Part shown: piece after piece, positions 404 through 41,390 of the stretch
Position numbering within the stretch: the first letter of the stretch is position 1
How the letters are laid out: each line of letters opens with the position of its first letter
Assembly (NCBI GenBank): GCA_003225005.1
Contig: QIAN01000222.1
Location: forward strand, 1-64,000
Direction: 5' to 3'
Source of the DNA: Acidobacteriota bacterium
GTDB lineage: Bacteria > Acidobacteriota > Terriglobia > Terriglobales > Acidobacteriaceae
Length of the DNA stretch: 64,000 nucleotides
Made by a program: the position numbers and the translations under genes
Notes under the pieces: model-generated
Database searches by the model: none
Seen by the model: only the letters and a program-made list of their open reading frames with translations
Told to the model about the DNA's origin: nothing

Positions 404-1471
404 TCAAGCGGCTTGCGATTTTAGTTTTTCTGCGTCGAAGTTTTCTCCCTTCTTCCAAAGTGTCAGCGTAATCGCTGCCAGCTTGCGCGCCAGCGTGAGA
501 CGCGCCATGGTCGGCTTGATGCCTTTGGCCAGCGCAGCTTGGTAGAAGTCCTGGAACGGTCCGGAACGCACACTGGCCATGGTGGCCGCTCCTTTGAACA
601 GACCTTTGAGATCATGGTTGTGGTCTTTGTTCAGGCCCCGGATGGAAAGCAGTTTCTTGGAACGCCGCACTTGACCTTCGACCAAGCGGTATTCCGCACT
701 GATGCGGGTTTCCAAGGCCAGTCCGCTATAGGCCCACAGTTGTCGCTTGCTGCGGAAACGATGCGGAGTCTGGATCAGGGCCACGGCCAGCGCCGAGCGA
801 ATCGGCCCCAGATACGGAATCTGTCGCAGCTTCGCGGTGATGGCATGCTTGCGACTTTCGGCCAGCAGTTCCCGCCGCGCTTGCTGACGCAAGTGTTGCA
901 ACATGTCCAGCTGCTCATAGAGTCGCTCCGCTCGTCGCCGCACGCCGGCTTCCCGAATCTTGGCCAGCCACTGAGCTCGATGCCGACGATAGTAGACATC
1001 TCTTCCCGCACAAGGAATCGCCCAGCTGCGATACACCGCTTTCAGTCGGTTCATGACCCGCGACAGGTCTTTAACGATGGTCAAGTAACTCCGCGCCAGT
1101 TCCCGCAGCATGCGCACGCCTGTCTCGCCGTGGTAAACCGGTTTGAGCTGATTGCCGCGTAACAACTCCGCCAGCTTGCGGGCATCGATCCGATCACTCT
1201 TGTTCCCGTCTTTGAGCAACGCGTTCTTCCGTGGATTGCACACCACCAGTTTGTCAACGTGAGGCTTGAGCAAATCGTACAGCCAGACCGACCAGGTTCC
1301 TTCCTCGAAGGTCACTGACAAAGTTCCGCGCAAGCCGGCGAAGAACTGAAGAATCGTCGCCGCTTCTGTTTCCAGAATCGATTCCATGACTAACTTACCC
1401 GTGGAATCCAGTACCGCCACCACGATGGTTGCTTGATGAACGTCCAGCCCAATATACTTTTCATCGTCCAC
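404..1471 (-). CDS. IS110-family transposase
   Basis: The product is a 355-residue DEDD transposase of the IS110 (probably IS1111-like) family, which mobilises its element by an RNA-guided recombinase mechanism. The N-terminal RuvC-like domain shows the first Asp in YIGLDVHQ (about residue 10), Glu in VTFEEG, and paired Asp residues in NKSDRIDARKLAEL. The C-terminal Tnp_20 domain carries IPYLGPIRSALAVALI, and the serine that acts as nucleophile in this family should lie near YSGL. Start is GTG at 1471, preceded by AAAGGAG about 8 bases upstream. Length matches the family, so the gene looks intact. Only 113 bp separate it from the next gene, including a GC-rich palindrome AAAGGGGCGCCCTTT at 1523-1537. 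Confidence 0.9.
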   Translation of the reverse strand: MDDEKYIGLDVHQATIVVAVLDSTGKLVMESILETEAATILQFFAGLRGTLSVTFEEGTWSVWLYDLLKPHVDKLVVCNPRKNALLKDGNKSDRIDARKLAELLRGNQLKPVYHGETGVRMLRELARSYLTIVKDLSRVMNRLKAVYRSWAIPCAGRDVYYRRHRAQWLAKIREAGVRRRAERLYEQLDMLQHLRQQARRELLAESRKHAITAKLRQIPYLGPIRSALAVALIQTPHRFRSKRQLWAYSGLALETRISAEYRLVEGQVRRSKKLLSIRGLNKDHNHDLKGLFKGAATMASVRSGPFQDFYQAALAKGIKPTMARLTLARKLAAITLTLWKKGENFDAEKLKSQAA

Positions 1472-1584: not shown

Positions 1585-2253
1585 CTAGGATGCCGCCCTC
1601 AGGCTGCAATTCTGTATTGGCAAAGCGCGTAAAACCACAGGAACGGATGCACCCTTACAAAAATTGTTTACATCGCACTGTGGATCAAGTGCAGCCTGAT
1701 TGTTTCCCGCTAGTACGAAGATGTTTGTTATTCCATTCGTGCAGAACGTTTCTCCATCAAGGAGTTGGAAGCTGAAGTTCTTTCCTGTCGTTGAAACCAA
1801 TTGCAATGCTACGGAAACGCAATTCTGTACCAACGTCTGGTTAGTTCCTATTGTTGCGCAAGCTGGAAGAACAAATCCCTCTTCTCCTCCCAGAGCAAGC
1901 AAACTACATGGAGGAGCCGGAAGAGGTATGCCAGATTGCCCGCACCCGGGACCCGTAGTGATTATTGGGAAGCCTCCCTGCTGCGAACTGAGACTGCTTC
2001 CTTTGACTACAAAAATCACATTTCCGAAGGAGATCGGATCTACCGTCACAGCTGACGCATCAAGATTCAGCTTGTATGAACTCACGACTCCTGTTGTGCC
2101 GTCACTATTAGCTCTTATGGCAGAGCCTAGATATTCAAAGTTGCCAATGGTGATCGACTTGGTTTGTGGAGCGTTTGACTTTGTTTGTGCAACCGCTGGT
2201 GAAACGGCTAGAAGTACTAACAGAACCACTGCCCAAACCGTATTGATGAACAT
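1585..2253 (-). CDS. Secreted protein of unknown function
   Basis: The product has 222 residues with a clear Sec signal peptide (hydrophobic VVLLVLLAVSP followed by AVAQ near residue 22), so it is exported. The mature part is rich in Ser, Thr, Gly and Asn. It has about seven cysteines, which suggests disulfides, and no recognisable catalytic motif. The ATG is preceded by GTGAGGACAA, a usable ribosome binding site. It sits between the IS110 transposase and a tRNA-Sec fragment, so it may belong to an integrated element. The C-terminus ends 113 bp before the transposase and shows no sign of truncation. Function not recognised. Confidence 0.6.
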   Translation of the reverse strand: MFINTVWAVVLLVLLAVSPAVAQTKSNAPQTKSITIGNFEYLGSAIRANSDGTTGVVSSYKLNLDASAVTVDPISFGNVIFVVKGSSLSSQQGGFPIITTGPGCGQSGIPLPAPPCSLLALGGEEGFVLPACATIGTNQTLVQNCVSVALQLVSTTGKNFSFQLLDGETFCTNGITNIFVLAGNNQAALDPQCDVNNFCKGASVPVVLRALPIQNCSLRAAS

Positions 2254-2680
2254 TTGTCCTCACAGATTAGGAGACTAGGCGGGGGAAAGCGCATTATAGT
2301 CCATGGTGGCCCTCGATCGGTATCTTTGATGTGGTGGGTCCCAGGTTTCGGTTTTCGCAGGGACTCACGTTGTCGAAAAGGACCTCGACTTGTGTGGGCT
2401 GGCTTCGCAGAAAGAATAGCAATGAACGCAAGAATCGAGGCGATTGATCGCATTGATAGCTCCCCGTTTCTCAGCGGAAGCATCATAACTGCAACATCGC
2501 TATATCCCTCACTGACCTTGGTCGTGGTCGTTTTGGCGAAGAACTGCTGTGATAAAAACGTGATAGTTCCATGTTCAGAACGGGTCAGAGTTGAACAAAA
2601 CGGATCAGAACGCATTTCTGGTAACTGGTTGAAGAATCAAGTAGAGTAGAGAATTTTCCTAACCCGTCAGAACACACTAG
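2254..2680. other. Gene-poor stretch left of the tRNA fragment
   Basis: About 430 bases without a gene I can support. Open frames exist on both strands (one on the minus strand begins MRSIASILAFIAILSA, signal-peptide-like) but lack a homologous look and overlap the start of the neighbouring secreted-protein gene. The stretch should contain the promoter of that minus-strand gene. It may be the inner edge of an integrated element ending at the tRNA-Sec fragment. Confidence 0.3.
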
Positions 2681-2685
2681 GTGAT

Positions 2686-2751
2686 CTTCAAAACCGGTGG
2701 GTGGCAGGCAATCCTGTCACCGGTGGGTTCGACCCCCATTCGCTTCCGCCA
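2686..2751 (+). tRNA. selC: 3' half of a selenocysteine tRNA (selC fragment, probable att site)
   Basis: The sequence begins with an anticodon loop CTTCAAA (anticodon TCA at 2688-2690), characteristic of tRNA-Sec. A long variable arm follows: GGTGGCAGG (2700-2708) pairs with CCTGTCACC (2713-2721) around a 4-base loop. The T arm is GTGGG-TTCGACC-CCCAT (2723-2739). An 8-base acceptor strand TCGCTTCC, discriminator G and encoded CCA end at 2751. No matching 5' half (GGAAGCGA, D arm, 5' anticodon stem) lies upstream; resemblance stops at the anticodon loop. This is the usual footprint of a tyrosine-recombinase insertion at the 3' end of a tRNA gene, with the intact copy expected to the left, outside the window. 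As it stands it cannot fold into a tRNA. Confidence 0.7.
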
Positions 2752-3011: not shown

Positions 3012-6005
3012 GTGGTCACTCCATCCCAATTCATCGGCCAAACCATTTCGCACTACCGCATCGTCGAGAAACTGGGCGGCGGAGGGATGGGTGTGGTTTA
3101 CAAGGCCGAGGACACCCGGTTGCACCGATTTGTCGCCCTGAAATTCCTGCCCGATGAAGTCGCCAAAGACACCCAAGCTCTTTCCCGTTTTCAACGTGAA
3201 GCGCAGGCCGCGTCGGCTCTCAACCATTCCAACATCTGCACGATTCACGACATCGGCGAGGAGAGCGGCCAGGCGTTCATCGCCATGGAGTTCTTGGATG
3301 GCCAGACTCTGAAGCACTTGATCGGCAACCGCCCTCTTGAACTGGAGACGCTGCTTTTGCTCGGAATTGAGATCGCAGACGCGCTGGACGCGGCGCACGC
3401 GGAAGGAATCGTTCATCGCGACATCAAGCCCGCGAATATTTTCGTAACTAAACGCGGACACGCCAAGATTCTCGACTTTGGGTTGGCGAAGGTTGCGGCG
3501 GCGAAAAGCTCGGCCGGTCAGGTGGCTGCCCTTAACACAAATTCGGGCACGCTGGATGGTGAGAACCTGACCAGCCCAGGCGCGGCCATCGGCACGGTGG
3601 CGTACATGTCCCCGGAGCAGGCGCGGGCGAAAGAACTGGATGCGCGCAGCGATTTGTTCTCCTTCGGTGCGGTGCTGTACGAAATGGCGACGGGCGCATT
3701 GCCTTTCCGCGGCGAGAGTTCTGCGGTCATCTTCCGCGAGATTCTGGATCGTGACCCGGTTCCGCCGGTACGGCTGAATCCTGACCTTCCGCCCAAGCTG
3801 GAAGAGATCATCAATAAAGCGTTGGAGAAGGATCGAGAGCTGCGCTACCAGCACGCTGCCGACATGCGGACCGATTTGAAGCGGCTGAAACGGGAAACGG
3901 ACACGGGACGTTCGGGTGCGGCTAGTTCCGCGGCGATGCCGGTGGGGTCGGATAGTGGTTCTCGGGCGGCAGTGGCGCCGGCAATTCCGTCTTCGGGTTC
4001 GACTCCAGCAATGGTTGCGGCATCTTCGTCGGACGCCACTCAGCCGCCGGCAGCCATGGCGAGTGGGGGAAGCAAACTTTGGAGAGTGCTTCTTCCGACG
4101 GCTATCGTTTTCATCGCGGCACTCGTTGCCGCTGGCCTCTACCTGCGCTCGCGGCCGGAAGCCGGGGCGACGAAGACAGAGCGGCTCACCGAGAAAGACA
4201 GCGTGGTGCTCGCGGATTTCGACAACAAGACTGGTGATGCCGTCTTCGATGATGCACTGAAGCAGGCGTTGTCGGTACAACTCGGGCAATCACCATTCCT
4301 CAATATTCTCTCCGACCGCAGAGTCGAAGAAACGCTGCGTTTGATGGGCCGTCCCTCGACAGAGCGGATCACCCGCGATGTGGCGCGGGAACTTTGTATT
4401 CGGACGGGCAGCAAGGCGATCGTCCTCGGGTCGATTTCCAACCTGGGAGGCCAGTACGTGATTGGCCTGAACACCGTCGGATGCAACAGCGGAGATACGC
4501 TGGCCACTGAACAGGAGCAAACAGACGCGAAGCAGGACGTGTTGAAGGCGCTTAGCACGGCGGCCTCTGCGCTGCGGGGAAAACTTGGTGAATCCCTGGC
4601 CACCATCCAGAAGTTCGATGTCCCGGTGGAGGCAACCACACCTTCGCTGGAAGCTTTGAAAGCTTATAGCATGGGCATTACCACCGGGCGCACGAAGGGC
4701 GATGCTGAGGCCATTCCGTTCATGAAGCGCGCCATTGAACTCGACCCCAATTTCGCCATGGCCTATGTCGGGCTGGGCGTCGAGTACGCGAACCTCGGGC
4801 AAGCAAGCCTGGCGGCCGGATATGCCAAGAGAGCCTATGACCTCCGAGATCGCGTGAGTGACCGCGAGAAGTACCGCATCTCCGCGTTTTACTATCAGTA
4901 CGTCACCGGTGAAGTGGAAAAGGCCACGGAAGCATACGAACTCTGGGCCAAAACTTACCCGCGGGATCTGGTACCGCACACCAACTTGGGTTACATATAT
5001 AGCACTCTCGGACAATACGACAAGGCAGCGGCCGAGACTGAACAGTCGCAGCGTCTTGAGCCCAGTCTGACGGGGTTCGGTAATCTTGCTGGCATTTACA
5101 TGAACCTGAACCGTCTGGACGACGCGCGGTCAGTGCTGCAGCAGGCCCAAGCCAACAAACTCGATGGGTTGGTGATTCGTGTCACCTGGTACGACCTTGC
5201 ATTTCTGCGCAGTGATGCGGCTGAAATGGAGCGGCAAGCAGCCTGGGCAGCCGGCCGGCCCGGGGAAGAAGACTCGATGCTCTCGACCCAGTCTGATACT
5301 GAAGCCTATTACGGTAGATTGACTCGAGCCCGCGACTTCTCTCGCCGTGCGGTGGACGCCGCGGTACGGGCCGATTCCAAGGAGACGGCTGCGCTGTGGC
5401 AAGCCAACGCCGCCTTGCGGGAGGCTGAGTTCGGCAATACTGCCGTCGCCAAACAGCAGGTGGGTGCTGCCCTGGCTAGGGCTCCGGGACGAGACGTAAA
5501 AGTGCTGGCCGCCATGACCCTAGCGCGAGCAGGCGAGACGGCACGAGCGAAGGCGATCGTCGAGCTGTTAGAAAAAAGCGAAGCTACCAACACAATGCTG
5601 AAGATTTACTGGCTGCCGACGATCAAGGCAGCCATCGAACTCAACAGGGGTAACTCATCTCAGGCACTGATTGATCTGGAAGCACCCGCCCCGTACGAAC
5701 TGGGTGGGCCAGTGCCCATAAGCGGCTTATACCCGGTTTACGTGCGCGGCCTCGCGTTCCTGACGGCTCACAACGGCGCTGCGGCCGCCGGTGAGTTCCA
5801 GAAGATTCTCGATCACCGCGGCATCGTGCTCAACCTGCCTCTGGGAACGCTGGCCCAACTGCAACTTGGCCGGGCCTATACATTGTCTAGCGACACGGCT
5901 AAGGCTCGAAGCACCTATCAGGATTTCTTCAACGTCTGGAAAGATGCCGACCCCGACATCCCCATCCTGAAGCGGGCCCGGGAGGAGTACGCGAAGCTGC
6001 AGTGA
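3012..6005 (+). CDS. Membrane-anchored serine/threonine protein kinase with TolB-like and TPR regions
   Basis: A 997-residue Hanks-type kinase. Residues about 14-280 form the kinase domain: glycine loop [14 protein letters not shown] (21-34), ATP-binding Lys44 in VALK, catalytic HRDIKPAN (135-142), DFG at 155-157 and [21 protein letters not shown] Ser/Ala/Pro-rich linker precedes one membrane segment near 355-377. The outer part begins with a TolB/FlgO-like stretch ([20 protein letters not shown]) and continues as many TPR-like helical repeats to the end. In this family the kinase domain is cytoplasmic and the repeats are presumed to sense or bind partners outside. The start is GTG with no strong ribosome binding site. 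A remnant of a second, similar tail lies at 6446-6543, and a STAS gene follows 67 bp later. Confidence 0.92.
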
Positions 6006-7174: not shown

Positions 7175-8434
7175 GTGTCTTTGAGCGATCTCATTTTCGA
7201 CGTCCTGCGGACATTGTGGGCACACAAGCTGAGGGCATTTCTGACCATGTTTGGCATTGCCTGGGGAATCGTGTCGATTGTGCTGATGGTGGCGGCGGGA
7301 GAGGGGCTACGCAAGGGCCAGGAGGATCAGGCCAGGAATCTGGGCAAGGACGTGATGATCGTTTTCCACGGCCGCACCAGCCTGCAGGCCGGTGGGACGC
7401 ATGCGGGACGAGTGGTGCACTGGGAGGCTGAGGATGTCCCGGTCGTGCAGTCTGAGTCTCCAGACTGCGAATACGCGATTCCGGAGTTAGAGCAGGATAC
7501 TGTGCGCACGCACAGCAATTTCAACAATGCAGCGTTCACCGTGACCGGGTCGTATCCACAGTTCGGATACATCCGGAGTCTCGACGTGGGCCAGGGACGC
7601 TTCTACGACTGGGATGATATGCGCGAGGAAAGGCGTGTGGCGTTTTTGGGATCGGACGCGGCCAAACAATTATTTCAAGGGCGCAGTCCCGTGGGCGATA
7701 CGGTTTACTTGAACGCCTTTCCCTACACCGTGATTGGCGTGATGGCTAAGAAGAAACAGGATTCGAGCTACGACGGTTGGGACGTGAACAAGGTTTTTGT
7801 TCCGTTCTCCGCCATGCGGCGTGATTTTCCCGACAAACCGCCCGGAACATCGAGCACTTTTGATCAATTGCTGGTAACGCCGAAATCTGTCGAGCAGCAT
7901 GAAGCTTGCAAGCACGAAGTGCGCGTAGCGCTGGCGCGAATGCATCGCTACGAGCCTGCGGACAAGGAAGCTTGCCCCATCTGGGATACGGTGCAGGAGG
8001 CGCAGGCGTTCAAGACGATGACGGACGGAATGAAGTATTTCCTGGGAGCGGTGGGGATTGTGACGCTGCTGCTGGGTGGCATTGGCGTGATGAATGTAAT
8101 GATGGTGGCGGTACGCGAACGGACGCGGGAGATTGGCGTGCGCAAAGCGATCGGGGCTCCGTCGGGAACCATTTTGCGGCAATTCTTTCTCGAGGCCTTG
8201 ATTATCGCTTCTCTCAGCGGAGTGATTGGGCTGGGAGTGGCATTCGGCTTTTGCGCACTGGTGAATCTGTTGCCGATGCCCGACTTCTTTGCTGGTCTGC
8301 TGCCCAGTTGGACTTCAGGGTTGGTGGCGACCGGCTTGTTGGGGACGGTTGCCGTGGGCGCGGCGCTGTACCCGGCGCGGATGGCGGCTTCCGTCGATCC
8401 TATTGAGGCGTTGAGGTATGAGGCCGGGGGATAG
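7175..8434 (+). CDS. MacB-type ABC transporter permease (first of a pair)
   Basis: An integral membrane permease of the MacB/FtsX-like class, about 419 residues from the proposed GTG at 7175. The open frame extends further upstream to 7034, but those residues look unlike the family. The N-terminus DLIFDVLRTLWAHKLRAFLT runs into the first membrane segment and is typical. A large periplasmic MacB core domain follows, then three C-terminal membrane segments with the conserved IGVMNVMMVAVRERTREIGV and RKAIGAP motifs, ending DPIEALRYE. A second permease follows in the same direction. No ATP-binding subunit is encoded in the window, so one must be supplied from elsewhere. Confidence 0.85.
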   Translation: MSLSDLIFDVLRTLWAHKLRAFLTMFGIAWGIVSIVLMVAAGEGLRKGQEDQARNLGKDVMIVFHGRTSLQAGGTHAGRVVHWEAEDVPVVQSESPDCEYAIPELEQDTVRTHSNFNNAAFTVTGSYPQFGYIRSLDVGQGRFYDWDDMREERRVAFLGSDAAKQLFQGRSPVGDTVYLNAFPYTVIGVMAKKKQDSSYDGWDVNKVFVPFSAMRRDFPDKPPGTSSTFDQLLVTPKSVEQHEACKHEVRVALARMHRYEPADKEACPIWDTVQEAQAFKTMTDGMKYFLGAVGIVTLLLGGIGVMNVMMVAVRERTREIGVRKAIGAPSGTILRQFFLEALIIASLSGVIGLGVAFGFCALVNLLPMPDFFAGLLPSWTSGLVATGLLGTVAVGAALYPARMAASVDPIEALRYEAGG

Positions 8435-13726: not shown

Positions 13727-15589
13727 ATGACGCGAAGACTGACGATGGCGCAGGCTGTCATCCGGTTCCTGAAAGTCCAACATGTATCGCGCGACGGAAG
13801 CGAAAGCCCGTTCTTCGCGGGCTGCTTCGGCATCTTCGGGCATGGCAATGTGGCGGGTATCGGGCAGGCGCTACAGCAAAGCTCGGACTTCCCCTACTAT
13901 CTGTGCCGCAATGAGCAGGCGATGGTGCATACGGCCGCTGGCTTCGCAAAGATGAGCAACCGCCTGCGGGCGCTGGTGTGCACCACTTCCATTGGCCCCG
14001 GGGCTACCAACATGGTGACCGGCGCAGCGGGCGCGACCATTAACCGCATTCCGGTGTTACTGCTTCCCGGCGACATTTTTGCACGCCGGAACGTCGCTCC
14101 GGTCCTGCAGCAGCTGGAGTTGGCTTCTACCCAGGATGTCTCTGTCAACGATTGTTTCAAACCCGTTTCGCGCTATTGGGACCGTATCGAGCGTCCCGAA
14201 CAAATCCTGACTTCTCTTCCGGAAGCGATGCGAGTGCTTACTTCGCCCGCGGAGACTGGCGCGGTGACCTTAGCGCTTCCCCAGGATGTCCAGGCCGAGG
14301 CTTTTGATTATCCGGAGGAATTCTTCCAGCGCCGCAGCTGGACAGTTTCCCGGCCCCGTGCTGATGCTGCTCTGCTGAATCAGGCTGTCGGGTGGATTCG
14401 CGCTGCCCAACGGCCACTGATCATCGCTGGCGGTGGCGTGATCTATTCGAATGCCACGGAGGCACTGGCGGGCTTTGCCGCGCGCACTGGAATTCCGGTG
14501 GCGGAGACGCAAGCTGGCAAAGGTACGCTCAACTTCGATCACGCTCAGTCGGTGGGTGCGATTGGTGTTACAGGAACTTCCGTGGCTAACCGATTGGCCC
14601 GCAACGCAGACTTGATTCTGTCATTCGGCACACGCTACAGCGATTTCACGACTGCCTCGAAGACCGCTTTTCAGAATCCAGATTTGCGGTTCATCAATGT
14701 GAACGTTGCCGAGTTCGACGCTTTCAAGCACGCCGCTTTGCCGCTGGTCAGCGATGCCCGCACCACTTTGGAGGAGCTCTCCGGCGCGCTCGCTTCGTAT
14801 CGCGTCTCTGAAGACTACCGCTCGGAGATATCTCGTCTCCGAAGCGAGTGGGCACCCGAAGTAGACAGGATCTACAGCCGGCGGCACGGTCCGCCGTTCA
14901 GCCAGGGAGAGGTGATCGGAGTGCTGAATGCCGCTCTTGGTCCGCGCGACGTGATCGTGTGTGCTGCAGGCAGCCTTCCCGGTGATCTGCACAAGCTCTG
15001 GCGCACTCGCGATCCCAAAGGCTATCACCTCGAGTACGGTTACTCTTGCATGGGGTACGAAATCGCCGGCGGCCTGGGGGTGAAAATGGCTGACCCCAGC
15101 CGCGAGGTCTACGTACTGGTGGGCGACGGTTCGTATCTGATGATGGCGCAGGAGATTGTCACGTCGCTGCAGGAGAACATCACGCTCAACATCATTCTAT
15201 TCGACAATTCGGGATTCTCCAGCATCGGCGGCCTGAGCCGCGCTTGCGGCAGTGGAGGATTCGGCACGAGATATCAATATCGTAATCAAGGAAAAGTCAG
15301 CGCCGTAATTCCTGTCGATTTCGTGGCGAATGCGGCCAGTCTGGGCGCGCATGCCGTGCGAGCGCGAACTCACGAGGAGCTGACGGAGGCTTTGGCTGGA
15401 TTGAAAAAACAGACTCGCACCTCGGTCGTGGTCGTGGAGACCGACTATTACGATTCTGTCCCGGGCTATGAATCGTGGTGGGACGTGCCGATCGCTGAGG
15501 TCTCTGAATCGGAGTCCGTTCAGAAAGCCCGCAAGGCTCATGTCGAGGGCAGGAAGCGGGAGAGATATTTCTGGCCGCCTCAGCGGTGA
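13727..15589 (+). CDS. iolD: 3D-(3,5/4)-trihydroxycyclohexane-1,2-dione hydrolase
   Basis: A 620-residue thiamine-diphosphate enzyme that opens the ring of trihydroxycyclohexane-1,2-dione to give 5-deoxy-glucuronate. The order is N-terminal PYR domain (GIFGHGNVAGIGQAL, then the active-site Glu in CRNEQAMVHTAAGFA), a central domain (PLIIAGGGVIYSNATEAL) and a C-terminal PP domain with the ThDP/Mg motif VGDGSYLMMAQEI ending in IILFDN. I chose the ATG at 13727, preceded by GGAG, because it gives MTRRLTMAQAVIRFL, the normal start of IolD. The open frame goes back to 13589. iolG follows 117 bp later. Confidence 0.93.
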   Translation: MTRRLTMAQAVIRFLKVQHVSRDGSESPFFAGCFGIFGHGNVAGIGQALQQSSDFPYYLCRNEQAMVHTAAGFAKMSNRLRALVCTTSIGPGATNMVTGAAGATINRIPVLLLPGDIFARRNVAPVLQQLELASTQDVSVNDCFKPVSRYWDRIERPEQILTSLPEAMRVLTSPAETGAVTLALPQDVQAEAFDYPEEFFQRRSWTVSRPRADAALLNQAVGWIRAAQRPLIIAGGGVIYSNATEALAGFAARTGIPVAETQAGKGTLNFDHAQSVGAIGVTGTSVANRLARNADLILSFGTRYSDFTTASKTAFQNPDLRFINVNVAEFDAFKHAALPLVSDARTTLEELSGALASYRVSEDYRSEISRLRSEWAPEVDRIYSRRHGPPFSQGEVIGVLNAALGPRDVIVCAAGSLPGDLHKLWRTRDPKGYHLEYGYSCMGYEIAGGLGVKMADPSREVYVLVGDGSYLMMAQEIVTSLQENITLNIILFDNSGFSSIGGLSRACGSGGFGTRYQYRNQGKVSAVIPVDFVANAASLGAHAVRARTHEELTEALAGLKKQTRTSVVVVETDYYDSVPGYESWWDVPIAEVSESESVQKARKAHVEGRKRERYFWPPQR

Positions 15590-15706
15590 AGCTGGATCTC
15601 GAGTCGTTATGAGGGTAGTTCTACAGTTGCGGTTTGACGAGGATGCGGAGCATGGGTGTTGCTGACCGCGCAGTGCAAGCGCGAAGACTTTCGGAGAGAA
15701 ACCGGC

Positions 15707-16726
15707 ATGCATAAGTTGGGAGTCGGTGTACTTGGAGTGGGGGAAATGGGCCGGCGCCACGCGGAGAATCTCCGTCGCCTGATACCCGAGGCTCGCCTGG
15801 TAGCCGTGGCCGACATCGCCGCCACCCGGGCCAGGCAGGTGGCGGATGAACTTGAAATCGAGCATTCATTCGGCTGCTTTGAGGACATGCTCGCGCACAA
15901 GGACGTCAACTGCGTCGTGATCGCCGCACCCGACAAGTTCCACGCCCAGGCGATTCGCACCGCGGCGGCAGCTCGAAAACATATTCTTTCTGAAAAACCG
16001 CTGGCAACGAACCTCGCGGACGCCCACGCCGCTGTGGATGCCGTCGCCAAAGCAGGCGTCCACTTGCAGGTGGGGTTCATGCGCCGTTACGATCCCGCCT
16101 ATTCTGCGGCGATGAAACGGATTGAAGCCGGCGAGATTGGAGAGCCCGTCCTGTTCAAGTCGATTGGGCGCGACAAAAATGCTCCGCCGATCTCCGCCTA
16201 TCAGTCAAAGCTCAACGGCATGTTGCTCTACAACAACACGATTCACGATTTCGATCTCGCCCGTTGGCTCATGCGGGATGAAGTCATTGAGGCCCACACC
16301 TATGCCACCGTCGCGATTCGTCCCGAGGTTGCACAGTACGGCGACGTGGTGGCGGCTGTCGTTAACCTGAAATACCGCCGTGGTGCCATTGGCAATATCG
16401 AATCATTTGTGCAATCCACCTACGGCTATGACGTTCGGACTGAGATTGTCGGATCCGCCGGATCAATTTTGGTGGGAAGCTTCCGACAGACGCCCGCGAC
16501 TTTCCTGACCAAGCATGGCGGCACGCAAATGCTTGCCGACCATTACCTGACACGGTTTGCGGAAGCGTACGTGGCTGAGGTCAGAGATTTTGCTCATAAC
16601 ATTTTGAACGACCGCCCGCCACAAATCACCGGCGAAGATGGCCTGCGCGCGCTCGAAATTGCGGTGGCGGCCGAAACTTCTTTTCGAGAAGGCAAGCCAT
16701 GCGGCGTGAACCAAGTAACAGTATGA
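15707..16726 (+). CDS. iolG: Inositol 2-dehydrogenase (Gfo/Idh/MocA family)
   Basis: 339 residues from ATG 15707, which follows GGAGAG; the frame is open back to 15656. The Rossmann motif is GVGVLGVGEMGRRHAENL (residues about 4-21). The EKPLATNLADAH motif contains the conserved Lys. VGFMRRYDPAYSAAMKRIEA and the catalytic-region TIHDFDLARWLM complete the signature of myo-inositol dehydrogenases, which oxidise inositol to 2-keto-myo-inositol with NAD. It is 117 bp downstream of iolD and 22 bp upstream of a transaldolase gene, so these form an operon. Related scyllo-inositol dehydrogenases look similar, so exact substrate is inferred. Confidence 0.85.
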   Translation: MHKLGVGVLGVGEMGRRHAENLRRLIPEARLVAVADIAATRARQVADELEIEHSFGCFEDMLAHKDVNCVVIAAPDKFHAQAIRTAAAARKHILSEKPLATNLADAHAAVDAVAKAGVHLQVGFMRRYDPAYSAAMKRIEAGEIGEPVLFKSIGRDKNAPPISAYQSKLNGMLLYNNTIHDFDLARWLMRDEVIEAHTYATVAIRPEVAQYGDVVAAVVNLKYRRGAIGNIESFVQSTYGYDVRTEIVGSAGSILVGSFRQTPATFLTKHGGTQMLADHYLTRFAEAYVAEVRDFAHNILNDRPPQITGEDGLRALEIAVAAETSFREGKPCGVNQVTV

Positions 16727-16748
16727 AAGCAACTGGCCGGAGGATTTC

Positions 16749-17849
16749 ATGACCCAAACCATCGCCCCTGCAACCTACAAGAGTCCACTGCATGAGATGA
16801 CGCAAACGACTCCGACCTGTCTGTGGAACGACTCGGCCTCGATCCAGGAGCTTACTTATTCGATCGAACACGGCGCAGTAGGGGCCACGTGCAATCCGGT
16901 GATTGTGCTCGGAGTGCTCAAGAAGGAAATGAGTCTCTGGAAGGATCGCATTCGCAGCTTGATCGACGAACGTTCTACCGCCACCGAGGATCAGATCAGC
17001 TGGCAACTGGTTCGTGAGATCTCAGTCAAGGCCGCGAGCTTGCTGCGGCCGGTCTTCGAAGCTCATCGGGGCAAGAATGGCCGGCTTTCCATACAGACGG
17101 ACCCAAGATTGTTTCGAGATTCGAACGCCATCGTGGAGCAGGCTGAGGAATTCAACCGGCTCGCTCCCAATATGATCGTCAAAATCCCGGTCACCCGCGC
17201 TGGGATTCCAGCGATTGAGGAAGCGACTTATCGCGGCATCAGCATCAACGCGACGGTTTCTTTCACGTTGCCGCAGTGCATCGCGGTCGCCGAAGCAGTA
17301 GAACGCGGGCTCAAGCGGCGCGAGCAAGAAGGCAAGGACATCACCGCAATGGGGCCGGTCTGCACGATCATGGTGGGGCGGTTGGATGACTGGCTGAAAG
17401 TGGTGGTGGAGAAAGAGAACATTGCGATTGACCCCGGGCACCTGGAATGGGCTGGGGTTGCGGTGTTCAAAAAGGCGTATCAGATTTTCCGCGAGCGAGG
17501 CTATCGTGTTCGTCTGCTTTCCGCGGCCTTTCGCAATCACATGCACTGGAGCGAGTTGATCGGCGGCGTCATTGTCATTTCACCGCCTTACTCGTGGCAG
17601 GTCCGCTTCAATGCCAGCGACATAGAGGTCTCCCCCCGCATTGATAACCCGGTCGATCAGAGAATCGTTGAGGAGTTGTCCAAGAAATTCACTGATTTCC
17701 GGCGGGCTTACAACGAGAAGGGCCTCTCGGTCGAAGAGTTCGATGCATTCGGTCCCAGTCGCCGGACGCTCCGCCAGTTCATCGCCGCGTGTCATGATCT
17801 GGATGCTCTTGTGCGCGACTTTATGGTTCCGAACCCGGACGTTGCGTGA
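16749..17849 (+). CDS. Transaldolase-family protein
   Basis: A 366-residue protein of the transaldolase family. The Schiff-base lysine is expected in MIVKIPVTRAGIPAIEEAT, followed by the family motif YRGISINATVSFTLPQ. The N-terminal TCLWNDSASIQELTYSIEHG and GATCNPVIV also match the transaldolase fold. It lies 22 bp after iolG and 131 bp before another dehydrogenase, in the middle of inositol genes. The window has no iolC kinase or iolJ aldolase. It may serve a sugar-phosphate step of this pathway, but that is a guess from position. It is longer than the small fructose-6-phosphate aldolase type. Confidence 0.75.
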   Translation: MTQTIAPATYKSPLHEMTQTTPTCLWNDSASIQELTYSIEHGAVGATCNPVIVLGVLKKEMSLWKDRIRSLIDERSTATEDQISWQLVREISVKAASLLRPVFEAHRGKNGRLSIQTDPRLFRDSNAIVEQAEEFNRLAPNMIVKIPVTRAGIPAIEEATYRGISINATVSFTLPQCIAVAEAVERGLKRREQEGKDITAMGPVCTIMVGRLDDWLKVVVEKENIAIDPGHLEWAGVAVFKKAYQIFRERGYRVRLLSAAFRNHMHWSELIGGVIVISPPYSWQVRFNASDIEVSPRIDNPVDQRIVEELSKKFTDFRRAYNEKGLSVEEFDAFGPSRRTLRQFIAACHDLDALVRDFMVPNPDVA

Positions 17850-17980
17850 TTGAAGTAACCAACGGCCCGGAAGCTTTCAACTGCCGGGTAAGACGAATCT
17901 GCCTCGAACTCAATTTATGGGCCATTGACGGGCGACACAGCGTCAGCCAGGCTCATCGTGACCATTGAGGAGTTTAAGAA

Positions 17981-19150
17981 TTGAAGCAAATCATTGGCGT
18001 GGGTGTGATTGGGATGGGTTGGATGGGAACCGTACACAGCCGGTCTTATCTTGCGGCTGCCGATCGCTTCCACGATAGTGGCTTCCAGGCAAAGCTTGTG
18101 GTCTGTGCGGATGACGTTGAGGAGAGGGCCAGGGAAGCCCAGGAGCGGTTTGGTTTCGAAGGTTACACAACTCGCTGGCAGGATGTGATTACCGACCCTC
18201 AAGTTCAAGTTGTCAATATCGCAACGCCGAATTACATGCACCTCGAGATTGTGAGAGCCGCAGCCGCAGCCGGAAAGCATATCTTTTGCGAAAAGCCCGT
18301 GGGCAAGGATCCGCGCGAGACCGCTGAGATCGAACGCTTGTCGCGCGAGGCCGGTGTTCTCACCTTTGTCGGGTACAACTACCGATGGTCTCCCATGGTG
18401 CAGTACGCGCGGCAACTTATCTGCGACGGGAAACTGGGGAGGCTCACCCACTTCCGAAGCCGGTTTTTTGCCGGCTACGCTTCCAACCCGCAAGGCGTGC
18501 TCTCGTGGCGATTCCAGCAGGAATTCTCCGGGTTGGGTGTCCTGGGCGACCTGATGTCTCACGTCGTGGACCTGGGCGTGACGCTCGCCGGCCCGATCAA
18601 GCGGGTGGTGGGCAATCGGGAGACGTTCTTACGAAAGCGGCCTTTGGCGGCACCCGGAGTCGGCACCCACTTCAGTGTAGGACAGGGAGGTCCGATGGGC
18701 GATGTAAGCAACGAAGACTATGCCGGAGCGCTGGCGCAATTTGCTAACGGCGTGCAGGGCTGCCTGGAGGTTTGCCGGGTGATTCAGGGGCACAAGTGTC
18801 AGTTTGCCTTTGAGGTTGAGGGTACCAAGGGCGCACTCAGCTGGGACTTCGAACGCATGAACGAACTGAAGGTATTCGCTCCGGATGAAGACGGTGTCCA
18901 TGACGGAACGGTCCGCATTGTGAGTGGTCCTCAGCACCCGTTTCACGCGCGATTTAATCCGGGCGCCGGTGTCGGATTGAGCTACGAGGACCTGAAAACC
19001 ATTGAAGCCCACCAGTTCTTGAAGTCGGTCGCAGAAAAGCGTCAGGGAGAACCCGGTTTTGCCGAAGCTTTGCGGGTGGCGAAGGTTCTGGGAACGATCG
19101 AGCGCACCTGGGAGAGCGAGAGATGGGAGAACGTCGAAAGCAGTCTGTAA
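17981..19150 (+). CDS. Gfo/Idh/MocA-family oxidoreductase, probable second inositol dehydrogenase
   Basis: 389 residues starting at TTG 17981, with GAGGAG 9 bases upstream. The Rossmann motif is [39 protein letters not shown] carries the conserved EKP, and [20 protein letters not shown] is typical. The C-terminal domain contains [20 protein letters not shown] with the conserved His/Asp pair. Members in iol loci act on scyllo-inositol, inosose isomers or related cyclitols with NAD(P). Its place after iolG and the transaldolase supports a role in cyclitol interconversion. The specific substrate cannot be read from the sequence. Confidence 0.8.
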
Positions 19151-21915: not shown

Positions 21916-22338
21916 CTAGGCGTCGAGCGGCCGACCAATCTCCCAGTGATGCCCGAAAGGATCAACCACCCGCCCCAGTCACCATCCGTGCTCCTCCCCT
22001 ACCGGGAAGACCTCGGCTGCGCCAGCCGCCCGCGCTTGGATGAAGACAGCATCCGGATCGGCTACAGTCAATATCATTCGAACCGAGCCGCCACCGAGGG
22101 ATTCGGGACTGAAGTTGCCATGCGCAGGAGACTCGTCGCTCAGCCAAAACTCCGCGCCATCGACGGAAAGCCTTGCCACCACGCTTCCGCTGGGGTCTTC
22201 GAGGCGAAACAGTTCAGTCGCTCCGAATGCGGCCTTGTAGAAGTCGACGGCTCGCGCACTATTGCGAACCGATAGCCAAGGCGCGATCGAGGTCCGGAAG
22301 GAACCGCCCGATGCGGAATTTGAGAGTGGCTCACTCAC
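21916..22338 (-). pseudogene. VOC-family (glyoxalase-like) protein interrupted by an in-frame TGA
   Basis: From GTG 22338 the frame encodes 119 residues of a PhnB-like VOC domain ([36 protein letters not shown]). It meets TGA at 21979-21981 and continues in the same frame as [20 protein letters not shown] to a TAG at 21916-21918. The part after the TGA is the conserved end of the family (DPFGHxWEI), where Arg usually follows HGW; CGA to TGA is a single change. The start overlaps the stop of the BNR gene by 4 bases (GTGA), suggesting coupled translation. The truncated product probably cannot complete its metal site. Confidence 0.7.
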
Positions 22339-38480: not shown

Positions 38481-39404
38481 ATGAAGCTCGGCTGCGGAAT
38501 TCTTCCTCTATCTAAGCAAGCGTTCTTTGCCGTACTGCTTTCACTGTCCGCTCTCGCGCAGCAAGCCGCCCAGCCGGTGCAGCCAAATGCCACGCCCAAG
38601 CCGGTGACCGGGGCCGAGCGGCTGCAGCAATGGCGATTATCACAGATGCCCATGCTCATGGACGACTTCGGCGAGCTGGCGCGCTACCGAGAGGCCAATG
38701 CTGCTCTCCAGCCTCCTGCGCCCAGTGAGAACCGCGTCGTGTTCTTTGGCGACTCCATCACCGACATGTGGAAGCTCGACGTGTCATTCCCCGGCAAACC
38801 GTACATCAACCGCGGGATCAGCGGGCAGACTACGCCGCAACTGCTGATTCGATTCCGGCCGGAGGTGATCGACCTTCACCCGAAAGTGGTTGTCATTCTC
38901 GCCGGGACCAATGACATTGCCGGCAACACCGGGCCCGAGAGTTTGGAACAGATCGAGGGGAACTACGCGTCCATGGCGGAACTGGCACGTGCGCATGAGA
39001 TCAAGGTGATCTACGCATCGGTGCTCCCCGTGCACGAATACACGCCCGAAGCCGGAGACATGTTCACCCAGCGCCCTCCTGAGAAGATCGTGGCGCTCAA
39101 TCGCTGGCTGAAGAACTATTGTGCGTCTTCATCTGTTGTCCCGCGAACCAGCTGCGTCTATCTCGACTACTTCAGCGCCATGGTTGACGATAAGGGATAC
39201 ATGAAGAAAGAGCTGGCCGACGACGGGTTAAATCCCAACGCTGCGGGATACAAGATCATGGCTCCCCTGGCGGAGGCAGCGATCGAGAAGGCGCTTATGG
39301 ACCTTCCCAAAACTGCCCATTTGGGCTTCGCCGAAATCAATGTAACCTCGCGTCGGCCCCGGCAATCTATAATGACAATGAGTTTCCGACTGCCCTGGCC
39401 TTAG
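38481..39404 (+). CDS. Exported SGNH/GDSL hydrolase
   Basis: 307 residues with a signal peptide (AFFAVLLSLSALAQQ). Block I is VVFFGDSITDMW (Ser about residue 90), block II Gly in INRGISGQTTPQLL, block III VVVILAGTNDIAGN, and the late Asp/His box is in DDGLNPNAAGYKIM (the usual DxxHP is DGLNP here). It is an esterase/lipase or acylhydrolase acting outside the cytoplasm. The change of catalytic His to Asn in the last block, if the alignment is right, would weaken activity. Substrate unknown; related proteins deacetylate sugars. Confidence 0.8.
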   Translation: MKLGCGILPLSKQAFFAVLLSLSALAQQAAQPVQPNATPKPVTGAERLQQWRLSQMPMLMDDFGELARYREANAALQPPAPSENRVVFFGDSITDMWKLDVSFPGKPYINRGISGQTTPQLLIRFRPEVIDLHPKVVVILAGTNDIAGNTGPESLEQIEGNYASMAELARAHEIKVIYASVLPVHEYTPEAGDMFTQRPPEKIVALNRWLKNYCASSSVVPRTSCVYLDYFSAMVDDKGYMKKELADDGLNPNAAGYKIMAPLAEAAIEKALMDLPKTAHLGFAEINVTSRRPRQSIMTMSFRLPWP

Positions 39405-39430
39405 GGGATACCCAGGCCGCGGCGGCGAGG

Positions 39431-39560
39431 GAAAGGGTTTGACGGACAACGAGTGTCCGTCCCTTATATTTCCCGAGGGCGCTGGTGGAAACGCCGGCGC
39501 CTCCCGGTCCTTCGAAGGACCATTGGAAAGGAAACAGCCGCCGGGATTTCTCCTCCCTGC
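39431..39560 (+). ncRNA. Structured leader upstream of moaA, Moco-riboswitch-like
   Basis: Four stems are readable: GACGGACA-ACGAG-TGTCCGTC (39441-39461), GGCGCTGG-TGGAAACG-CCGGCGCC (39478-39501), the palindrome GGTCCTTC/GAAGGACC (39506-39521), and TCCCGG (39502-39507) closing with CCGGGA (39541-39546) around it. The conserved-looking CATTGGAAAGGAAAC (39521-39535) sits between the last stem and its closing strand. The position ahead of moaA and this arrangement match the molybdenum- or tungsten-cofactor riboswitch as I remember it. A covariance search is needed. The moaA start lies about 120 bp further on. Confidence 0.55.
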
Positions 39561-41077: not shown

Positions 41078-41390
41078 CTGTGAAAGGAAACACCAGCAGC
41101 TTCAACATCCCCGCAGGCTGGGCGCTGACGTCGAATTGCGGATCTCAATCAAGGGTCGGCTAAACGATAACGCGCAGTGGGTCTGCTGCAGCCGCTGTGA
41201 GCTTTCAACATCCCCGTTCCAAGATGAAGCTGACGAAAGCAGTTTGTTGCGGCTTATTTGGAGCTGAAGGCGAGTCACAACATGGGCACCGTTACTGCCG
41301 TTTGCAGTCTGGAGAACTATCTCGTCCTTCCCTAACTACATTGTCTTTTGCGGCGTGCACTTTATGGCCAGCCGCAGATGCGGTAGAATA

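Follow-up and report, generated by a model that had tools for sequence, protein, structure and literature searches.

The selC gene of this acidobacterium appears to have been replaced by mobile DNA from both ends, one kind of element giving the 3′ half and a rarer kind the 5′ half. The window, that is the whole 64-kb stretch analysed here (contig C189:1-64000), contains half of a selC gene, and contig C249 of the same genome contains an intact selC together with a second, orphan half. In the reading that we consider probable from these sequences, the window holds the attR of an island, E2, with an element of opposite polarity, E1, on the other side, and the live selC would be a mosaic of the two elements' halves. 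The genome comprises 7.9 Mb in 550 contigs, with a completeness of 99.73 and a contamination of 1.5.

The selC 3′ half and the island end in the window

The original prediction had placed half a tRNA-Sec gene, lacking its 5′ half, at 2686..2751. The sequence confirmed this and moved the true start one base to the left. From T2685, where similarity to genuine selC genes begins, to position 2751 on the plus strand, the anticodon loop is followed by the long variable arm, the T arm, the acceptor strand and CCA, and the 5′ half is missing. Comparison of positions 2600-2800 with the intact selC of the same genome (C249:1670-1736) gave an E value of 1.2e-10, beyond chance, and the reversed control of the selC 3′ end pattern gave 0 matches in all 45 genomes. 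ARAGORN called no tRNA in the 64-kb window, as expected for a half gene, and Rfam found none there at the gathering score. The 3′ end pattern search also turned up further selC 3′ remnants in the 45 genomes, and a selC-like T-arm and acceptor remnant at G000:C144:1798-1827 is the second in this genome.

The origin of the half gene was sought among 41 selC 3′ halves drawn from 39 genomes: the genome's own intact copy, 37 halves that represent all copies from the 35 same-genus relatives giving a match, and 3 from the same family or order. The nearest was that of the congener G041, with 2 differences in 67 positions, followed by G012 (3 differences) and G013 (4 differences). The genome's own intact selC ranked 35th of 41, with 12 differences, too many for the half in the window to have been copied recently from the live gene. 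Because of this near-identity to relatives and the 12 differences to its own selC, the window is read as retaining the host's original 3′ half, displaced as part of attR, and the live selC as carrying a foreign 3′ half that the element would have supplied. The 66 bases at the 3′ end had been predicted to be identical to those of the intact selC; they are not, since the window keeps the host's original half, as the relatives show. Such an arrangement is an ordinary outcome of integration, in which the attP of the element replaces the 3′ half of the tRNA gene and the old half is displaced to the far end.

An island end module at 2541..2697 (plus strand) runs into the anticodon-loop core and has related copies elsewhere in the genome. 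This 157-bp module is 89% identical to a copy on C231 and 82% identical to one on C121, with shorter matches on C122, C386 and C93. It contains a 21-bp repeat at 2545..2565 (plus strand), which an exact search found at only two places genome-wide: at this island end and at C249:1581-1601, between the live selC and an integrase remnant. Two more places matched with 1 and 3 mismatches, and the control gave 0 matches. We infer that the repeat is an arm-type integrase site marking each end of a single element, E2. One end is on C249 and the other on C189, and the island between the live selC and the window junction was not assembled because both lie less than 3 kb from a contig end. Elsewhere, at about 22100-22440 on C121, there is a tandem pair of island-end modules, of which the second continues into a 3′ half that looks by eye like tRNA-Ser, and C93 carries a tRNA-Ser-like gene, an integrase-like ORF and a module remnant at about 7770-8080.

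On the island side of the junction, the window encodes an IS110-family transposase (404..1471, minus strand; PF01548 and PF02371) and an ORF with a signal-peptide-like start, judged by eye, and no Pfam family (1585..2253, minus strand). The first large gene on the presumed host side encodes a Ser/Thr kinase with TPR repeats (3012..6005, plus strand). G031, the sole relative that backs the flank to the right of the half gene, does so weakly: a kinase gene follows its selC at a similar distance, with 432 bits against 551 bits for another kinase of G031. A tblastx match had put forward G019 as a second case, with a kinase beside a selC 3′ remnant; it was rejected when the first long ORF was by eye no kinase. 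Farther into the window there are a molybdenum-cofactor riboswitch match (39371-39549) and two tandem nadA riboswitch matches (41098-41271).

The half gene had been claimed as an att site; its most likely identity is attR, the far end of an island that would have entered selC. In the G042 bin there are two selC alleles, nearly equal through the upstream stretch and the 5′ half, whose 3′ halves differ from the loop on. Beyond the loop, one contig has 487 bases left, and these showed no match exceeding the length of the tRNA half plus a short flank. An orphan 3′ half, 93% identical to that of G041, starts 175 bp from the selC start in one of these alleles.

The live selC and the orphan 5′ half on contig C249

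The intact selC that had been expected in the same genome is present at C249:1674-1767 (66.9 bits), and ARAGORN calls it tRNA-Sec. The family search of the genome returned 16 matches at E values up to 0.001, and one besides the live gene, on C171 (48.2 bits), narrowly passed the cut-off of 47. A tRNA-Sec fragment and an intact copy coexist in one genome, as classic islands of the 3′-half type require. An integrase gene had also been predicted next to the intact copy. A convergent ORF with a weak phage-integrase match does end about 145 bp past the 3′ end of the live selC, but it is a C-terminal remnant of a tyrosine integrase with a Pfam score of 22.4 bits, below the cut-off of 27.1. The implied selenocysteine system of the host was found: SelB scored 359 bits and SelA, together with a neighbouring stretch, 533 bits, both above their cut-offs.

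A search of the genome with the selC region of a relative revealed an orphan selC 5′ half at C249:39369-39409 (minus strand). It lies 37.6 kb upstream of the live selC on the same 45,140-base contig, has one inserted base and ends at the loop (TTCAAAA, then unrelated sequence). A peroxiredoxin match ends about 105 bp before this orphan; in G026 the corresponding distance to selC is about 119 bp. Next in the conserved upstream stretch are genes for a response regulator and an ABC ATPase, and the stretch has matches at 22 of 39 relatives' selC loci. When the orphan 5′ half was joined to the window half, ARAGORN called tRNA-SeC(tca). Since the orphan adjoins the conserved upstream genes and the joined halves are called as one tRNA, what remains of the ancestral selC appears to flank the occupied region, one piece at either outer edge. 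An element of the 5′-half type would leave the host 5′ half behind at the original site, and this genome has such an orphan there.

The live 5′ half (C249:1729-1767) contains one base unseen in the other 40 copies, which breaks the outer anticodon-stem pair, and the upstream flank of the live gene bears the motif TAA-four bases-TTGA of 5′-type elements. The 37.6-kb stretch encodes heparinase-like, DeoR/LacI, esterase, MFS, amino-sugar isomerase, GH109-type, oxidoreductase and reverse transcriptase genes. No integrase was found at the 5′ end of the live selC or between it and the orphan among the 29 scanned of 30 ORFs of at least 100 aa. A separate island on the same contig has an intact integrase gene (C249:42824-43942) about 96 bp away from a tRNA-Cys 3′ end; a tRNA-Gly gene is close by.

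In the proposed sequence of events, the tyrosine-integrase island E2 would have entered selC at the anticodon loop, with window positions 2685-2751 as its attR. It would have brought its own 3′ half, which now completes the live selC on C249, and pushed the host 3′ half to the far end in the window. E1, of opposite polarity, would have brought a 5′ half and its own upstream sequence and left the host 5′ half at C249:39369-39409. The live selC would then consist of the E1 5′ half and the E2 3′ half, with the host halves at the outer edges of the two islands. The live gene, the two orphan halves, the 21-bp repeat common to both island ends, and the empty and filled sites of relatives are all seen in the sequences, and they fit together if strands were exchanged in the loop and if C249 and the window's contig are contiguous. 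The order of the two events, and that the upstream sequence of E1 may drive selC, is deduced in the same way.

Elements of the 5′ type in relatives and their integrases

A search of 45 same-genus genomes for a 39-nt selC 5′ half, with up to 3 mismatches, gave 41 places spread over 36 genomes. Five of these places were orphan 5′ halves (G001, G011, G013, G023 and G038). The pattern missed the orphan in the window's own genome because of its inserted base, and with it orphan selC 5′ halves occur in 6 of the 45 genomes. In G001 the orphan is present and no intact selC was found at an E value of 1e-9. G013 and G030 form a filled/empty pair for a 5′-type element. The G030 flank and 5′ half align with the G013 orphan (G013 1049-1110, 89%), and the G030 selC with 4.3 kb of downstream DNA aligns with the intact selC of G013 (14740-19081, 82%). 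From these alignments, the 13.6-kb insert in G013 is bounded by the orphan 5′ half and by a rebuilt selC whose 5′ half the insert supplied.

Matches to the G038 integrase, some of them remnants, were located at the 5′ end of selC in at least seven genomes (G006, G013, G021, G023, G028, G038 and G044). In relatives such as G038, G028 and G023 the integrase lies between the orphan and the rebuilt tRNA 5′ end, and the integrase frames are whole in G038 and others. Short repeats at both insert ends are common to the attachment flanks of G038 and G023 (by eye). The live selC genes of G021 and G023 have foreign D-arms, and one unusual selC 3′ half is common to G023 and G042. Three of 41 selC copies (G000, G021 and G023) have a broken outer pair in the anticodon stem, and signs of a 5′-type element accompany each. 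The TAA-four bases-TTGA motif, which was picked after the sequences were seen, occurs upstream of 6 of the 41 copies, all with an orphan 5′ half or a 5′-side integrase, and is missing in G011, G028 and G044, which are likewise 5′-type genomes. In G035, two identical complete selC copies lie 12 kb apart (C1086:10154-10247 and 22221-22314), one of them 9 bp from the contig end.

The facing of the integrases was surveyed more widely. In the genus, 13 of the 17 integrase loci examined have a tRNA gene within 250 bp; 12 of these face the tRNA 5′ end (10 by the integrase start and 2 by its stop) and 1 the 3′ end. A search of 1.6-13.7 kb of upstream DNA at the 13 loci gave two orphan 5′ halves, that of G038 and an exact one of 37 bp in G023, 8.0 kb upstream of tRNA-Cys. 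In named genomes there were at least 384 confirmed integrase matches. Among the best 80 of these, 38 have a tRNA gene within 800 bp, with 7 facing its 5′ end and 31 its 3′ end. The genus and named-genome counts overlap, since 4 start-first 5′-facing loci are common to both. Orphan fragments were found at 7 of these 38 tRNA-adjacent loci: four at 5′-facing loci, all 5′ halves upstream, and three at 3′-facing loci, all 3′ halves downstream. Within the best 80 of at least 384 matches, the type of orphan agreed with the facing of the integrase at all 7 loci that have one.

A tree was built from 36 integrases, 26 of the 38 (12 of the 31 facing the 3′ end were left out) and 10 from the genus set. 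The ten integrases that face the 5′ end by their start form one group (91/96). The five that face it by their stop are split, with two 3′-facing integrases near them, one of these on a very long branch. One integrase family sits at the 5′ ends of tRNA genes (Sec, Ser, Met, Arg and Cys), and its elements probably supply the 5′ half, the mirror of the usual kind.

Alternative readings and relation to known systems

A single element with a short shared core could have split selC while carrying a complete replacement selC, as in tRNA-dependent lysogeny. In its favour, the two orphan halves break off at the loop with a common core of about nine bases, contiguous contigs would place a complete selC between them, and the carried-tRNA principle has been proven in mycobacteriophages (PMC10865867). 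The 21-bp repeat in the window, however, has its counterpart beside the 3′ end of the live selC and not beside the orphan, so a carried whole selC leaves the repeat unexplained. In relatives, the intact selC lies at a junction with host DNA rather than within an element (G013 against G030), and here the motif of 5′-type elements stands upstream of the live gene. We therefore regard the single-element reading as unlikely.

It is less likely still that the window half is an island end while an unrelated rearrangement, or an insertion long since decayed, produced the C249 orphan, with the live selC keeping its own 5′ half. The ORF scan of C249, which gave no 5′-side integrase, and the live 5′ half, one base off the genus type, would suit such a history, but it is the orphan and not the live gene that adjoins the conserved upstream genes, and similar orphans recur with integrases in relatives. 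An assembly or binning error, with another organism in the sample as the source of the half gene, the intact selC or the orphan, is very improbable. The number of contigs and the two selC alleles in the G042 bin speak for it; against it stand the completeness and contamination values, the position of the window junction inside an 86,675-base contig, the placement of orphan and live selC together on one contig, and the recurrence of similar elements in other genomes.

Several features are shared with known systems. The standard island signature is an intact tRNA gene (tDNA) with a displaced tDNA fragment (Islander, PMC4383910). In those islands the intact tRNA gene stands by the integrase and the displaced fragment lies at the far end, a layout that suits E2 and the window half; unlike there, the integrase here is a remnant, the island is not assembled, and the other half of the intact gene also appears foreign. 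Integrases of the archaeal pTN3 type are described as using the tRNA 5′ half, so that the rebuilt tRNA loses its original promoter (PMC8371274, PMC5495485); their own gene is split when the element integrates. In bacteria, according to the review, a comparable situation occurs seldom (PMC8371274). The elements described here resemble that type in that they would supply the 5′ half and separate the rebuilt tRNA from its original promoter, and differ in having Acidobacteriota as hosts and in keeping an unbroken integrase frame, as in G038 and others. In tRNA-dependent lysogeny, as outlined in PMC10865867, the tRNA gene comes entire with the actinobacteriophage, and no tRNA gene is restored at the junction. 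There, too, the host tRNA is split at the anticodon region and mobile DNA supplies the function, but the halves here appear to be exchanged at the junctions. Titles and abstract openings of the top literature matches gave no 5′-half elements or mosaic tRNA-Sec genes in these bacteria. The use of 5′ halves is known in archaea and called seldom in bacteria.

Integration into tRNA genes is usually pictured as a swap of the 3′ half only, with the host promoter and 5′ half staying in charge. Here, both tRNA halves look exchangeable. On balance we favour the view that the elements mobilised by one clade of bacterial tyrosine integrases bring along the 5′ half of the target tRNA gene (Sec, Ser, Met, Arg and Cys) with its upstream sequence. 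Where they encounter classic 3′-half elements at one anticodon loop, they would be able to replace an essential tRNA gene piecewise, so that the only recognised tRNA-Sec gene of this genome would be wholly mobile-element DNA with a predicted mobile-element promoter. If true, this would explain the independent variation of the selC halves in the genus (the D-arms of G021 and G023, and the 3′ half of G023 and G042), and the near-palindromic anticodon stem-loop would offer a natural test of how integrases choose their orientation. Mobile elements could then take over the expression of host tRNAs.
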